This document shows positions 18,298 through 23,774 of a DNA stretch of 45,628 bases, in pieces. The DNA lies in contig MGWR01000036.1 in assembly GCA_001801085.1 (NCBI GenBank), forward strand, positions 1-45,628. Direction: 5' to 3'. The stretch is from Gallionellales bacterium GWA2_60_142. GTDB lineage: Bacteria; Pseudomonadota; Gammaproteobacteria; Burkholderiales; Gallionellaceae. A program made the position numbers and the translations under genes. The notes under the pieces are model-generated. The model was not told the origin of the DNA and did not search any database. It saw only the letters and a program-made list of their open reading frames with translations. Each line of letters opens with the position of its first letter. Position 1 is the first letter of the stretch.

Positions 18298-21153
18298 ATG
18301 CTGCACGCCGTAGCCACCGAGGGTGTCACCATGTCTCCGATGCATGTCACCGACGTTTCAGATTCCGTTCAGTCTCAACCCAGCACGCTCGACCAATACA
18401 AGGTGATCCGCCGCAATGGCTCGGTGGTTCCGTTCGAGCCCAGCAAGATTTCCATTGCTCTGACCAAGGCGTTCATCGCCGTCAATGGCGCCCAGGGCGC
18501 CGGTTCCGCCCGCGTGCGCGAGCTGGTCGAGCAGTTGGCCGGCGGCGTAGTGTCCGCGCTGATGCGTCGCCAGCCGCACGGTGGCACCTTGCATATTGAG
18601 GACATTCAGGATCAGGTCGAGCTCGGTCTGATGCGTTCCGGCGAGCACGATGTCGCGCGAGCCTATGTGTTGTACCGCGAAGAGCGTTCCCGCTCGCGCG
18701 CCAAGGTCAAGAGTATCGAGCCGGCGCACGTCATCAATGTGACAGGGACGGACGGCGTCGTCCGTCCGCTGGATCTCGATCGTCTCTCTGTGCTGATGCT
18801 GTCGGCTTGCGAGGGACTGGGCGATGCGGTCAGCGCGGATGCGGTGCTCAAGCTGGCGATCAAGGATCTGTACGACGGCGTGTCGCAGCAGGAAGTCAGC
18901 AAGTGTCTGATCCTTGCGGCGCGCTCGCTGATCGAACAGGAGCCGGCCTATAACTTCGTTACCGCGCGCCTGCTGCTCAATAATATGTGCTGCGAGACGC
19001 TGGGCGAGGATGTCGCTCCCGGCGAGATGGCGACGCGTTATGCGGAATATTTCCCCGAGTACATCAAGCGCGGCGTCGCGGCCGAGTTGCTGGACGTGCG
19101 CCTGTCGCAGTTCGACCTGCCGCGCCTCGCCGCCGAACTGGACGCGTCGCGCGATTTGCAGTTCGGTTACCTCGGCTTGCAGACTTTGTACGACCGCTAC
19201 TTCCTGCATGTGCAGGGCAAGCGCATCGAATTGCCGCAGGCCTTCTTCATGCGCGTCGCGATGGGCTTGTCGTTGAACGAGATCGACCGCGAGTCGCGCG
19301 CGATCGAGTTTTATCGCCTGCTGTCCAGTTTCGACTTCATGAGCTCCACGCCGACGCTGTTCAATTCCGGTACGCAACGCTCGCAACTGTCGTCCTGCTA
19401 TCTGACTACGGTGGCGGACGATCTGGACGGCATCTACGAGGCGATCAAGGATAATGCGCTGCTGGCAAAATTCGCCGGCGGTCTGGGCAACGACTGGACG
19501 CCGGTGCGCGCGCTGGGCGCTCACATCAAGGGCACCAACGGCGAGTCGCAGGGTGTGGTGCCGTTCCTGAAAGTGGTGAACGATACGGCGGTTGCGGTGA
19601 ATCAGGGCGGCAAGCGCAAGGGCGCGGTGTGCGCCTACCTGGAAACCTGGCACCTGGACATCGAGGAATTCCTCGATCTGCGCAAAAACACCGGCGATGA
19701 CCGTCGCCGCACGCACGACATGAACACCTCGAACTGGATTCCCGACCTGTTCATGAAGCGCGTAATGGAAGGCGGCGACTGGACATTGTTTTCGCCGTCC
19801 AATGTGCCTGACCTGCACGACAAGTTCGGCGCCGATTTCGAGCGCGCCTACGTGGCTTACGAGGCGAAGGCCGCCAACGGCGAGATCAAGCTGTTCAAGA
19901 AGCTCCCTGCGGCCAGCCTGTGGCGCAAGATGCTGACCATGTTGTTCGAAACCGGCCATCCATGGATCACCTTCAAGGATCCGTGCAACATCCGTTCGCC
20001 GCAGCAGCATGTCGGCGTGGTGCACAGCTCCAACCTGTGCACCGAGATCACGCTGAACACCAGCGACAGCGAAATCGCCGTGTGCAACCTGGGTTCGGTG
20101 AATCTGGCGGCTCACCTGTATCCAAAAGGACACGAGCAGGCTGGGCAGATCGACCACGACAAGCTGCGCCGCACCGTCAACACCGCGATGCGCATGCTGG
20201 ATAACGTGATCGACATCAACTATTACGCGGTGGGCAAGGCGCGCAATTCCAACCTGAAGCATCGTCCGGTCGGCATGGGCATCATGGGTTTCCAGGATTG
20301 CCTGCACGAACTGCGCATTGCTTATTCGTCGCAGGAGGCGGTCGAATTTGCGGATCGCTCGATGGAGGCGGTGTGCTACTACGCCTACTGGGCGTCCACC
20401 GAGCTGGCCGAGGAGCGCGGACGCTATGCCAGCTATCGCGGCAGCCTGTGGGATCGCGGCATCCTGCCTCAGGATTCCTTGGATATGCTGCGCAATGAAC
20501 GGGGCGGTTACGTCGAAGTCGATATGTCGTCCAGCATGGATTGGGACGCATTGCGTGCCCGCATCAAGCAGCATGGCATGCGTAATTCCAACTGCGTGGC
20601 AATCGCGCCGACCGCGACGATCTCCAATATCATCGGCGTATCGGCCTGTATCGAGCCGACTTACCAGAACATCTTCGTGAAATCGAATCTGTCCGGCGAG
20701 TTCACCGTCATCAACGAGCATCTGGTTGCCGACCTGAAGCAGTTGGGGTTGTGGGACGAGGTGATGATCGCCGACCTGAAGTATTTCGACGGGACCTTGG
20801 CCAAGATCGACCGCGTGCCGCAGGAGCTGCGCAGCCTCTATGCGACAGCATTCGAGGTCGAGCCAAGCTGGTTGATCGAGGCGGCATCGCGTCGCCAGAA
20901 GTGGATCGATCAGGCGCAGTCGCTGAATATCTATATGTCGGGCGTGTCTGGACGCAAGCTGGACGAGACTTACAAACTGGCATGGCTGCGCGGATTGAAG
21001 ACGACGTACTATCTGCGCACATTGGGGGCGACTTCCGCCGAGAAATCCACCGGTCGCGCCGGAGCGTTGAATGCGGTGCCGACGCACGGTGGCGTAGTGG
21101 AAGAAACCAAGTTCTGCTCGATTGACAACCCCGAATGCGAGGCGTGCCAGTAG
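18298..21153 (+). CDS. nrdA: Ribonucleoside-diphosphate reductase class Ia, alpha subunit
   Basis: A 951-residue catalytic subunit that reduces ribonucleotides to deoxyribonucleotides. The N-terminus holds ATP-cone regulatory sequence (YKVIRRNGSVVPFEPSKI, and a second cone-like stretch around residues 145-230). The catalytic core shows SSTPTLFNSGTQRSQLSSCYL and SNLCTEI with the thiyl-radical cysteine (Cys581, in N-x-C-x-E). The C-terminal redox pair is Cys947 and Cys950 in ECEACQ. GGGAG stands just before the ATG at 18298. The region after its stop carries repeats that include degenerate copies of its last codons. Confidence 0.97.
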   Translation: MLHAVATEGVTMSPMHVTDVSDSVQSQPSTLDQYKVIRRNGSVVPFEPSKISIALTKAFIAVNGAQGAGSARVRELVEQLAGGVVSALMRRQPHGGTLHIEDIQDQVELGLMRSGEHDVARAYVLYREERSRSRAKVKSIEPAHVINVTGTDGVVRPLDLDRLSVLMLSACEGLGDAVSADAVLKLAIKDLYDGVSQQEVSKCLILAARSLIEQEPAYNFVTARLLLNNMCCETLGEDVAPGEMATRYAEYFPEYIKRGVAAELLDVRLSQFDLPRLAAELDASRDLQFGYLGLQTLYDRYFLHVQGKRIELPQAFFMRVAMGLSLNEIDRESRAIEFYRLLSSFDFMSSTPTLFNSGTQRSQLSSCYLTTVADDLDGIYEAIKDNALLAKFAGGLGNDWTPVRALGAHIKGTNGESQGVVPFLKVVNDTAVAVNQGGKRKGAVCAYLETWHLDIEEFLDLRKNTGDDRRRTHDMNTSNWIPDLFMKRVMEGGDWTLFSPSNVPDLHDKFGADFERAYVAYEAKAANGEIKLFKKLPAASLWRKMLTMLFETGHPWITFKDPCNIRSPQQHVGVVHSSNLCTEITLNTSDSEIAVCNLGSVNLAAHLYPKGHEQAGQIDHDKLRRTVNTAMRMLDNVIDINYYAVGKARNSNLKHRPVGMGIMGFQDCLHELRIAYSSQEAVEFADRSMEAVCYYAYWASTELAEERGRYASYRGSLWDRGILPQDSLDMLRNERGGYVEVDMSSSMDWDALRARIKQHGMRNSNCVAIAPTATISNIIGVSACIEPTYQNIFVKSNLSGEFTVINEHLVADLKQLGLWDEVMIADLKYFDGTLAKIDRVPQELRSLYATAFEVEPSWLIEAASRRQKWIDQAQSLNIYMSGVSGRKLDETYKLAWLRGLKTTYYLRTLGATSAEKSTGRAGALNAVPTHGGVVEETKFCSIDNPECEACQ

Positions 21154-21380
21154 GCAAGCCCCGCATCGGGGTTGCGGTGAAGGCTAACTTGCGGAGCAAG
21201 TTAAGCCCCGAAGGGGGGGGCCGAAACCACAATCCGTTTTGTGAGGCGTGCCAGTAGGCACGACACACGCTCTGGATTACGGCGAAGGCTAACCTGCGTA
21301 GCAGGTTAAGCCCCGAAGGGGCGGCCGTAGCCACAATCCGGCGAAGCATGTCAGTAGGTATGTCGAATCGGGCGGCAGAA
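21124..21380 (+). repeat. Tandem array: nrdA 3'-end copies separated by palindromic elements
   Basis: The last codons and stop of nrdA recur twice downstream. Real tail: 21124-21153. Copy 2: 21228-21257, reading H-N-P-F-C-E-A-C-Q-stop, with 18 identical bases through GAGGCGTGCCAGTAGGCA. Copy 3: 21332-21357, degenerate (CACAATCCG then GTCAGTAGG). The spacing is 104 and 100 bp. Between the copies lie palindromic elements at 21175-21228 and 21280-21332. This explains most of the 304-bp gap between nrdA and nrdB. The remainder (21380-21457) shows only the AGGAG site of nrdB. Confidence 0.85.
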
Positions 21381-21457
21381 TAAAAAATTTGAGTCTGTCC
21401 CATCGCAGACTATGAAATATGGGCAGCAATGTCCGATAAACACAGGAGATGAACAAT

Positions 21458-22597
21458 ATGCTGACATTCGAAGAAGACATCAAGCCGTCCGCGATACCGT
21501 TTGGTGCGATGCATGCGGCTTATGGCGATGCCCCTGCCGGGACGCGTGCGGACAGTCTGCAAATGGATGTCGCGCCTGCTACAGGCCGCGTGCGCGTCGA
21601 GGACAAGGCGATCATTAATTCGCGCGCCGACGTGAACCAGTTGGTGCCGTTCAAGTACAAGTGGGCTTGGGAGAAATATCTCGCCGCCTGCGCGAACCAC
21701 TGGATGCCGCAGGAAGTGAACATGACCGCGGACATCGCGCTGTGGAAAGGCAACAAACTGACCGAGGACGAGCGCCGTCTGGTCAAGCGCAACCTCGGTT
21801 TCTTCACCACGGCGGACAGTCTGGCTGCGAACAATATCGTGCTCGGCACTTATCGCCACATCAGCAACCCCGAATGCCGTCAGTTTCTGTTGCGTCAGGC
21901 TTTCGAGGAGGCAATCCATACTCATGCCTATCAGTACATCGTCGAGAGCCTGGGGCTGGACGAGGGCGAGATTTTCAACATGTATCACGAGGTGCCCAGC
22001 ATCCGCGCCAAGGACGAGTTCCTGATTCCGTTCATCAACGTGCTGACCGACCCGGCATTCAAGACTGGTACGCAGGAGGCGGATCAGGCGCTGTTGCGGA
22101 GTCTGATCGTGTTCGCCTGCATCATGGAAGGCCTGTTCTTCTATGTTGGCTTCGTGCAGATCCTGGCGCTCGGGCGCCAGAACAAGATGACCGGCGCTGC
22201 GGAGCAATACCAGTACATCCTGCGCGACGAATCCATGCACCTGAACTTCGGCGTGGATGTGATCAACCAGATCAAAATGGAAAACCCGCATTTGTGGACG
22301 CCGGAATTCCGCGAAGAAATCCGCGGCCTGTTCCAGAAAGGCGTCGAGTTGGAATATGCTTACGCCGAAGACACCATGCCGCGCGGCGTGCTGGGGCTGA
22401 ATGCCGGTATGTTTAAGGAATACCTGCGCTTTATCGCGAACCGCCGATGCCAGCAAATTGGTGTCGACACCTTGTATCCGGGTGCAACCAATCCGTTTCC
22501 CTGGATGGCCGAAATGATCGACTTGAAGAAAGAAAAGAATTTCTTTGAAACTCGCGTAACCGAGTATCAAAGCGGGGGCGCGTTGTCGTGGGACTGA
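21458..22597 (+). CDS. nrdB: Ribonucleoside-diphosphate reductase class Ia, beta subunit
   Basis: A 379-residue diiron-tyrosyl radical subunit that initiates catalysis in NrdA. The metal/radical motif E-x-x-H-x-x-x-Y is EAIHTHAY (Glu151, His154, radical Tyr158). Further ligands lie in CIMEGLFF and [10 protein letters not shown]. The C-terminal tail GALSWD is the part that docks into NrdA. ATG 21458 has AGGAG nine bases upstream; the ATG at 21449 touches the AGGAG and is less likely. Diverged copies of its 3' end lie downstream. Confidence 0.96.
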
Positions 22598-22862
22598 GGC
22601 TGGAAATTCGTTCGGTGAAGGCTAACCTGCGCAGCAGGTTAAAGACGGCTTTTCCGTCTGGCCGTAGCCAAAAGAAATTTTTCGAACCCGCATTGCTGAG
22701 TATCAGCGCAAAGGCGCTCTGTCTTGGGATTGAGATGACGGAAGAGGAATTTTTGAAGCGCAGGCCTGTAGTGCTCCGACGAAAGTGTGGGCGGAGCGTG
22801 GGAGTTTGCTGACAGACGCGTCACCGTATCAAACGGTGGCGCGTTGTCTTGTGGTCAGACTG
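22534..22862 (+). repeat. nrdB 3'-end copies with an intervening palindromic element
   Basis: The real nrdB tail ends at 22597. After the palindromic element (22613-22669), copy 2 runs 22672-22733. With one missing base restored it reads F-E-T-R-I-A-E-Y-Q-R-K-G-A-L-S-W-D-stop, with mainly third-position differences from the real tail. A more degenerate copy 3 lies at about 22816-22862 (CGCGTCACCG, TATCAAA, GGCGCGTTGTC, GACTG). A possible fragment of the preceding codons lies near 22740-22764, separated from copy 3 by a GCTCCG..CGGAGC hairpin. No gene is supported in 22598-22862. Confidence 0.8.
22613..22669 (+). repeat. Palindromic element shared by the nrdA and nrdB 3' flanks
   Basis: The outer stem is GGCTA / TAGCC. 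Inside are AACCTGC-GCA-GCAGGTT and AGACGG-CTTTT-CCGTCT. The same plan occurs at 21280-21332 (second hairpin CCCC-GAA-GGGG) and at 21175-21228 (first hairpin AACTTGC/GCAAGTT, outer stem decayed). The common opening is CGGYGAAGGCTAAC and the common close is GGCCGTAGCC. One base pair covaries in the first hairpin, and the second hairpin is replaced as a whole. Confidence 0.82.
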
Positions 22863-22908
22863 TTTTAATGGGACGATCAAGATCGCTGGTTAACTAGACA
22901 TGGCCAAT

Positions 22909-22999
22909 CGATCGAGTCAGAAAAATGCTGGCTCGGTCGCTGGTCAATGTTGTATAGCCAATCGACTAGGCTGGAAAAAGACTCCAGCCTAGTCGTTAA
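22909..22999 (+). repeat. Two tandem related stem-loops, possible terminators
   Basis: Stem-loop 1 pairs CGATCGAGTCAG (22909-22920) with CTGGCTCGGTCG (22928-22939) using two G-U pairs. Stem-loop 2 pairs CGACTAGGCTGGA (22963-22975) with TCCAGCCTAGTCG (22983-22995) perfectly. Each has a 7-nt loop starting AAAA and is preceded by GCCAATCGA. No clear T-run follows, so termination is plausible but unproven. Nothing else is recognised in 22863-23090 apart from the AAGGAGG site before 23091. Confidence 0.6.
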
Positions 23000-23090
23000 A
23001 AGGCTTCGGACATGCCGCGGTGCGGTATGCTGGGGGTGGTAGTCGCAGGTGTTGTATTTCGTTAACTTTCATTATCTCAAGGAGGTTGAA

Positions 23091-23774
23091 ATGGCAGCAG
23101 AAAAGAAAACTAAACCAGCAGCAAAGAAGGCGGCAGCTGCAAAGCCGGCAGCCAAGAAAGTAGTAGCCAAGCCAGCCGCCAAGAAGGCAGCACCGGCAGC
23201 GAAGAAAGCCGTCGCAGCCAAGAAGCCTGTAGCTAAAAAGGCGGTAGCAGCGAAGAAGCCAGCGGCCAAGAAGGCAGCACCGGCAGCGAAGAAAGTCGTC
23301 GCCGCCAAGAAGCCTGTAGCTAAAAAGGCGGTAGCAGCGAAGAAGCCAGCGGCCAAGAAGGCAGTACCGGCAGCGAAGAAAGTTGTCGCCGCCAAGAAGC
23401 CTGTAGCTAAAAAGGCGGTAGCAGCGAAGAAGCCAGCGGCCAAGAAGGCAGCACCGGCAGCGAAGAAGGTTGTCGCAGCCAAGAAGCCTGTAGCTAAAAA
23501 GGCGGTAGCAGCGAAGCCGGTGGCCAAGAAGGCAGCACCGGCAGCGAAGAAAGTTGTCGCCGCCAAGAAGCCTGTAGCTAAAAAGGTGGTAGCAGCGAAG
23601 CCAGTGGCCAAGAAGGCAGCACCGGCTGTCGCAGCCAAACCGGCAGCAGCTCCTGCTCCTGTTGTGGTCGCGGCGAAACCGGCAGCTCCAGCACCGGCTC
23701 CTTCTGCGCCAGCTCCTGTGCGTCCGGCGGCTACATGGCCTTTTCCCACACCGGGTATCGGCAAGCCGAACTGA
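23091..23774 (+). CDS. Histone H1-like, lysine/alanine/proline-repeat DNA-binding protein
   Basis: A 227-residue, extremely basic protein made of KPAAKKA/VAAKKPVAKK repeats, resembling the eukaryotic H1 tail and bacterial AlgP/HctB/Bordetella BpH1-like proteins that bind DNA non-specifically in the nucleoid. A 29-residue (87-bp) unit, KKAAPAAKKVVAAKKPVAKK plus AVAAKKPAA, repeats nearly five times with small changes. The C-terminal 45 residues are Pro/Ala-rich and end in WPFPTPGIGKPN. AAGGAGG gives an excellent ribosome-binding site for the ATG at 23091. The number of repeats is likely to vary between strains. The exact function is inferred from composition. Confidence 0.85.
   Translation: MAAEKKTKPAAKKAAAAKPAAKKVVAKPAAKKAAPAAKKAVAAKKPVAKKAVAAKKPAAKKAAPAAKKVVAAKKPVAKKAVAAKKPAAKKAVPAAKKVVAAKKPVAKKAVAAKKPAAKKAAPAAKKVVAAKKPVAKKAVAAKPVAKKAAPAAKKVVAAKKPVAKKVVAAKPVAKKAAPAVAAKPAAAPAPVVVAAKPAAPAPAPSAPAPVRPAATWPFPTPGIGKPN
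23123..23640 (+). repeat. Imperfect 87-bp tandem repeat within the histone-like gene
   Basis: The DNA repeats with an 87-bp period through the KPAAKK region, with shared blocks such as GCTAAAAAGGCGGTAGCAGC and AAGAAGGCAGCACCGGCAGC recurring. The last two units are shortened by one codon. Confidence 0.85.

Follow-up and report, generated by a model that had tools for sequence, protein, structure and literature searches.

A duplicated nrdB tail in Gallionellales bacterium GWA2_60_142 as a candidate member of a family of small, tail-replacing insertion units

Why is the 3' end of a ribonucleotide reductase gene followed, some seventy nucleotides on, by a second and diverged version of itself? 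The question is raised by contig MGWR01000036.1 of Gallionellales bacterium GWA2_60_142 (45,628 nt, the whole stretch analysed and hereafter the window); its own genome is labelled G000, while relatives and loci carry numbers prefixed by G and L, respectively. The parts of nrdA and nrdB and the hairpin beyond them that are given with coordinates below lie on the forward strand. The gene nrdB, encoding the beta subunit of ribonucleotide reductase, occupies 21449..22597 with its body and working tail (open reading frame list; NCBIfam NF005550, 1.4e-206), and beyond its body the DNA carries, in this order, T1 (the working tail including its stop), Trc (the beginning of T1 copied in inverted orientation), E (a folded element) and T2 (a second tail). 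T1 (22533..22597; sequence and alignment) is the last 65 nt of the gene, with AAAA at its start and TGA at its end, and T2 (22670..22733; alignment, its native place being taken from comparison with G035) is a displaced and decaying copy which terminates in ...RIAEYQRKGALSWD-stop and is one base shorter. The 72 nt separating them (22598-22669) consist of 15 nt including Trc (22602..22612, GGAAATTC.., directly before E), followed by the 57-nt E (22613..22669), in which two variable stems are held within a conserved closing stem, as located by pattern, alignment and covariance model. Trc is weak in the window, scoring 8 to T1 and 6 to T2. An earlier, sequence-only reading of this DNA had placed the tail copy at 22672-22733 and was silent on both the folded element and the inverted copy preceding it.

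The duplication of the tail after nrdB is real. The alignment test which that reading had named was run and the likeness persisted, with a local alignment score of 28 between T1 and T2, far above the maximum of 14 over 688 other 260-nt stretches of the window on both strands and the maximum of 19 in 300 shuffles. With the missing base treated as a gap, the 21 codons comprise 7 synonymous and 5 nonsynonymous differences (N/K, V/I, T/A, S/R and G/K) and 1 codon with the gap; by codon position, the differences number 5, 1 and 10 at positions 1, 2 and 3. An excess at third positions had been taken to mark a coding tail still under selection. The excess itself holds across the pairs of the wider family and is weak in the window (10 of 16 differences), and since T2 has lost one base and changed five residues, it is not a selected tail any longer. 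Likewise, functional consequences had been foreseen from a swap of the NrdB tail; none is expected, because T1 encodes an NrdB ending also present in relatives, among those listed. T1 of the window is 0.89 identical to the tail of G035, the nearest relative fetched, as against 0.65 for T2, and the best match of T2 among 40 relatives is only 0.68. The proposal that T2 is the former true tail of the gene is supported as to place, judged from the flanks of unit-free relatives; in sequence, T1 looks the more native. This T2 may be either the tail of a donor or the former tail.

A third, more decayed tail copy had also been proposed at 22816..22862. Its likeness to T1 exceeds chance (score 25, with 0 of 500 shuffles as high, a significance that is overstated as the stretch was preselected for likeness), and this shuffle test lends no support to the view of the stretch as a mere terminator. 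In its present state it is nevertheless a terminator-shaped hairpin, folding stably as CGCGTCACCG..CGGTGGCGCG, with similar hairpins found 3' of nrdB in G035 and G044, and it was not among the predictions of a terminator scan. It may be an old displaced tail copy turned terminator, or a product of convergence. Beyond it, at 22883-22990 of the window, stands another palindromic repeat (GCCAATCGACTAGGCTGG...CCAGCCTAGTCG), like sequence occurring in L026 and L028.

The neighbouring gene upstream, nrdA for the alpha subunit (18298..21153; open reading frame list; NCBIfam NF005544), has two further copies of E and two extra tails, which were absent from the sequence-only reading. Its working tail T1 (21125..21153, NPECEACQ-stop) is followed by Trc (21162..21173, an inverted copy of the tail start), a first E (21175..21228), T2 (21229..21257, NPFCEACQ-stop), a second E (21280..21332) and a shortened tail copy T3 (21333..21358, EACQ-stop).

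E measures about 50-70 nt and holds no gene. Five copies were found in the own genome by pattern and a sixth by a looser pattern, and the six align as CGGYGNAGGCTAA - stem 1 - TTAA - stem 2 - GGCCGNARCC - ANAA. Stems 1 and 2 covary: on a structure drawn by hand on those same six copies, 98.1% of cells are paired and 14 double changes occur against 3.4 in shuffles, and 60 distinct copies, in an alignment fitted to the covariance model itself, give 97.8% paired cells and 122 double changes against 29.2. The conserved closing stem (GGY..GGC/GCC..RCC) belongs to this fold and may or may not correspond to the terminal inverted repeats of a miniature inverted-repeat transposable element (MITE). No Rfam family matched up to E=1 in the stretch searched (21000-23100).

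It can be deciphered from the model searches that E is common in the family. The covariance model found 21 matches in the own genome at E<=1; at E<=0.01, it matched in 117 of the 150 family genomes sampled and in 15 of 15 genera, own genome included. A class-wide draw gave E in 2 of 229 genomes at E<=1e-8, one of them being the window's own; as the limits differ (0.01 and 1e-8), the two rates are not directly comparable. The exact pattern of E was found in 78 stretches of the genome collection, whose titles include Gallionella, Sideroxydans, Thiobacillus, Dechloromonas, Azonexus, Propionivibrio, Ideonella and Paucibacter, these names being record titles and unreliable as taxonomy.

In related bacteria, many conserved genes show the arrangement of nrdB at their ends. 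A model search of 147 loci (69 + 78), most of them chosen for a high E score and 40 for holding nrdB, returned 177 matches, or 163 after removal of exact duplicates. In 133 of the 163, a long open frame had its end within a range from 150 nt upstream of E to 20 nt inside it; for 71 of the 133, the gene end was repeated behind E at a score above 9, the 95% level of swapped controls, scoring being by nucleotide identity and not by amino acids. In an untargeted nucleotide alignment across E, 22 of the 163 exceeded 39.5, the 99% level of the swapped controls; same-gene pairs inflate this control, and the gene-anchored version is the more sensitive. Among 46 of the 78 titled stretches, which include members of the window's family such as Ferriphaselus, T2 was recovered at a score of at least 11 for 25 of 60 copies of E, a count that has no separate control. 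The ftsW genes of Dechloromonas sp. CZR5 and Azonexus fungiphilus are among the loci with both E and T2. At ftsW loci such as L122, L126 and L155, an ATGA lies within T2 and is apparently the next gene's overlapping start, and part of this T2 may be kept for the translation start of that gene.

Fourteen host genes were named by NCBIfam: nrdA, nrdB, argF, metK, glmS, smpB, ftsW, acs, dnaJ, ccmE, tktA, proB, pstB and a relative of aspartate transaminase, with the tktA and transaminase hosts being partial proteins below the curated cut-off. One further host protein had no NCBIfam hit; we take it to be VWA-like.

From the 71 tail pairs, we kept 64 distinct ones with a T1 that fitted any of 15 gene-end motifs; the other 7 were dropped as misframed, unrecognised or duplicate. 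Over 902 codons these 64 pairs show 390 synonymous and 122 nonsynonymous differences, for which random placement predicts 97 and 412, and their differences at codon positions 1, 2 and 3 number 159, 76 and 434. At most one nonsynonymous difference is seen in 41 of the 64, and 23 have at least three synonymous codon differences and no nonsynonymous one. The pairs are non-independent, since the same unit may enter the count through several species, and the members of arrays enter it singly. With the same reservation, third-base G+C is lower in T1 than in T2 in 36 of the 64 pairs, higher in 15 and equal in 13, a pattern which fits a separate history of T1.

The arrangement is also polar. Across 87 repeats spanning E at a score of at least 17, an outward frame of at least 120 codons stands on the 5' side only in 49, on both sides in 27, on the 3' side only in 4 and on neither in 7, frames on either strand being taken and chance frames included. 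Trc scores better with T1 in 51 of 63 pairs, with T2 in 4 and equally in 8, a few misframed pairs having been left in this count. Because of this polarity and of the match between Trc and T1, the working tail, its stop, Trc and E behave as one unit, apart from T2. Over 15 genes, the insertion place has the gene sequence G|AMAA; the A in positions one and three of AMAA is partly built in, T2 having been located by a CCANA pattern, and the preceding G, the choice of A or C and the fourth base were not imposed by the search.

Which of the two tails is native can be asked of place and of sequence separately. As to place, the nrdB of unit-free G035 (compared with the window) and of unit-free G105 (compared with G084) has a single working tail followed by DNA like that after T2. 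For argF, the DNA after the single tail of G084 matches the T2 flank of G105, and that of G054 matches the T2 flank of G037 over a short flank only; the pair G125/G096 gave no flank match and G027/G019 no clear one. A flank match was thus found in 4 of the 6 aligned pairs (2 nrdB, 4 argF). Since the single tail of the unit-free relatives sits where T2 sits, we conclude from these alignments that T2 holds the native place in the cases given.

As to sequence, the answer varies. Compared with G105, the nrdB of G084 is 0.95 identical over the last 150 nt of the gene body, 0.78 in T1 and 1.00 in T2; over seven nrdB carriers, T1 is the more native-looking in five (G000, G139, G094, G032 and G010), T2 is favoured only in G084, and G122 is tied. 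The argF sample comprised 50 genomes (15 with unit and T2, 32 unit-free and 3 with E and no T2). Here, the mean identity to the nearest unit-free tail is 0.807 for T2 and 0.770 for T1 over the 15 carriers, against a unit-free baseline of 0.819, and T2 is closer to the nearest unit-free relative in 8 of 15, T1 in 5, and the two are equal in 2. Another script, which took the nearest relatives of any kind, had T2 closer in 10 of 19 rows, T1 in 7 and equality in 2; its rows were 15 argF and 4 metK (12 of 30 metK loci and 0 of 41 nrdB loci used), the metK row of G000, with a gene-body identity of 0.38, being clearly misaligned. Where gene bodies are at least 0.86 identical, the T1s of carriers are 0.848 alike (19 pairs) against 0.795 for unit-free tails (99 pairs), and their T2s, at 0.787 (19 pairs), are not above unit-free tails. 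These tests of tail origin are weak because tail identities are near saturation. A foreign origin of T1 in every case is made less likely by argF (8 of 15 for, 5 against, 2 ties), and nrdB speaks mostly against it; which copy has the native sequence varies. In argF of G105 and G114, T1 and T2 have identical middles and differing starts and ends, mosaics which would be the expected trace of crossovers inside tails. We conclude that T1 and T2 often have different histories, of which the simplest common cause would be recombination between carrying and non-carrying alleles.

The likeness among copies of E points to a gene-bound pattern. It averages 0.745 between copies at the same gene in different genomes (991 pairs), 0.696 within one genome (111) and 0.695 between unrelated places (6863). 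The nearest neighbour of an E sits at the same gene in 95 of 127 cases, while same-gene pairs make up only 991 of 7965 (12%); for 2 of the 127 it lies in the same genome, approximately the 1.4% share of such pairs. As likeness and neighbours within genomes are only at background, these comparisons give no sign of recent copying of E within genomes. The surroundings of PF01797 matches were searched at 30 loci of about 3 kb, some of them truncated at contig ends and all taken from a longer list of matches in 41 genus genomes; up to E=0.1, no match to E was seen there. No machinery, be it a recombinase or of another kind, came to light in a search that covered Y1 transposases only.

On balance, the nrdB feature probably belongs to a family of small insertion units that replace gene tails. 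This reading builds on what is observed, namely the anatomy of the insertions, their folding, their gene-bound distribution, the native place of T2 in the cases listed and the match of Trc to T1. Its components would be T1, a gene end complete down to the stop that replaces the native one; Trc, which could fold back on T1; and E with its 50-70 nt or so. The unit would lie among the final codons of a conserved gene, where the sequence resembles G|AMAA. The gene would stay intact through T1, and the native end, pushed downstream as T2, would then be free to decay. The units would be bound to particular genes and were probably passed between lineages by ordinary homologous recombination, with the gene body and T1 as the left arm and T2 and its flank as the right one; T1 and T2 would thereby have served as working tails in separate histories, from which their synonymous divergence would follow. 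On the birth of a unit we can only speculate: the 3' end of E could be joined to the AMAA side of a nick, T1 could then be copied from the exposed 3' end of the gene, and a template switch to the displaced strand could have Trc copied back up to the foot of E. This scheme, speculative as it is, would account for the polarity, for the place and direction of Trc and for the AMAA joint. A stronger proposal, that the units form a gene-less mobile class of about 60 nt which folds as a single strand, is guided by Trc to that same gene and codon in other cells, preserves the function of the gene through the recoded tail attached to it and depends on a trans-acting enzyme, appears improbable to us.

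The tail-replacing unit has to be weighed against duplication in situ, in which E would insert and duplicate the gene end over a long stretch, much as in an extended target-site duplication, T1 then drifting synonymously and T2 decaying neutrally. Near-identical pairs fit this at least as well and speak against the favoured reading (L142 with 55/55 nt, nrdB at L077, argF of G032 at 0.94 and of G091 at 0.90), and the decayed T2s of G094 and G010 and a tandem nrdB tail with no E between in G065 point the same way. Neutral decay predicts many nonsynonymous changes, however, which sits badly with the 23 of 64 pairs having at least three synonymous differences and none that is nonsynonymous, and a simple duplication does not predict frames on the 5' side only in 49 of 87 repeats and on the 3' side only in 4. 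We regard it as rather unlikely, though a serious contender, the more so since the argF flank pairs that lack a clear match and the nrdB tally count against the favoured reading. Both tails could instead be under selection if cells alternated between a unit-bearing and a precisely excised state, by DNA excision or by RNA splicing from AMAA to AMAA. In 14 of the 15 argF carriers, which span several genera, T2 can still be read as the tail of that gene, and the like motifs at both boundaries would restore the frame; yet several T2s, that of the window included, are frameshifted, stopped or heavily changed, and splicing of T1-E from RNA is disfavoured because units occur antisense at gene 5' ends (L021, L159). 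Such alternation is the least probable of the explanations considered here. These same two loci also tell against the preferred tail-replacing reading, as the phenomenon is there not a matter of 3' ends alone.

That E is an ordinary palindromic repeat of the REP or MITE type, with the tail copies as by-products of local amplification, would suit its small size, its structure, its 21 matches in G000 and the tandem arrays at metK and nrdA. It is hard to reconcile with the likeness of the copies, which within a genome (0.696) does not exceed that between unrelated loci (0.695), and with the lack of an E match in the 30 Y1-transposase loci, and we hold it to be quite unlikely. With REP/BIME sequences and their RAYT transposases, E shares being short, structured, repeated and intergenic, and a short conserved hairpin is indeed repeated in the genome; an identity with them was rejected as none of the 30 loci had a repeat-flanked Y1 transposase, nor did E lie near any of them. 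REPs are not known to us to carry a copy of a neighbouring gene end. As for MITEs, the repeated gene ends (about 20-90 nt and usually diverged) are unlike a short identical target-site duplication, and spread within genomes is not seen, likeness staying at background and copies grouping by gene. E resembles MITEs and the Rickettsia palindromic elements in being a small palindromic repeat at genes; the latter are small, tolerate positions in or at genes and form in-frame gene fusions (PMC10969869), unlike the units with E, where the gene ends at T1, before the element.

The closest likeness is to prophage e14 in the icd gene of Escherichia coli K-12, where the gene end upstream of the element has remained intact, its changes being mostly silent, and part of it is repeated on the far side (PMC11148124, PMC6379469). 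That copy, icdC, has 165 bp with 12 nucleotide exchanges and 2 conservative replacements, and e14 itself has 15,204 bp with an integrase and att sites (PMC11148124, PMC6379469). Common to both are insertion at the end of a housekeeping gene, an intact end on the body side and a copy on the far side; our units have the intact end on the body side and a displaced native end, with the flank matched in 4 of 6 pairs. They differ from e14 in that E has only about 50-70 nt, is gene-less and is preceded by an inverted tail copy, and in that it occurs at 14 named host genes, each with its own tail; no integrase is present, the stretch from T1 to T2 at nrdB being 72 nt. Two further candidates were rejected by eye: an integron attC site, suggested by the TAAC...GTTA stem base, for its far too short spacing, and a diversity-generating retroelement, since the differences between T1 and T2 run in all directions. 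The arrangement was not found described in the open literature searched.

A gene-less folded element with an end custom-made for each gene would be a compact natural way of inserting without breaking an important gene, and the units offer many test cases for the exchange of gene ends between species. Their sharing gene by gene could make cross-species recombination at housekeeping genes measurable. As the units plant false gene tails, stops and starts in 3' regions, annotation can be misled by them.

Some minor observations were made on related repeats. At L022 (1301-1924, contig C25 of G000), a short E occupies the start of the gene for RNase P RNA, with the match to Rfam beginning right after E, and a second copy of the 5' head of this RNA was seen by eye before E; the RNA may be interrupted or duplicated there. 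At L021 and L159, an antisense E lies at the 5' end of a gene, presumably a transporter, whose first codons (MNRGFY..) are repeated two or three times, with synonymous changes between the repeats of L021. A larger repeat family of about 250 bp, GTAGCGAGCGG ... CGCAGTAG, which holds a short form of E, was recognised by eye in L023, L026, L028, L031, L032 and L033. In the window itself, an alanine/lysine-rich gene at 23049-23774, which we take to be histone-like, contains an 87-bp internal repeat.
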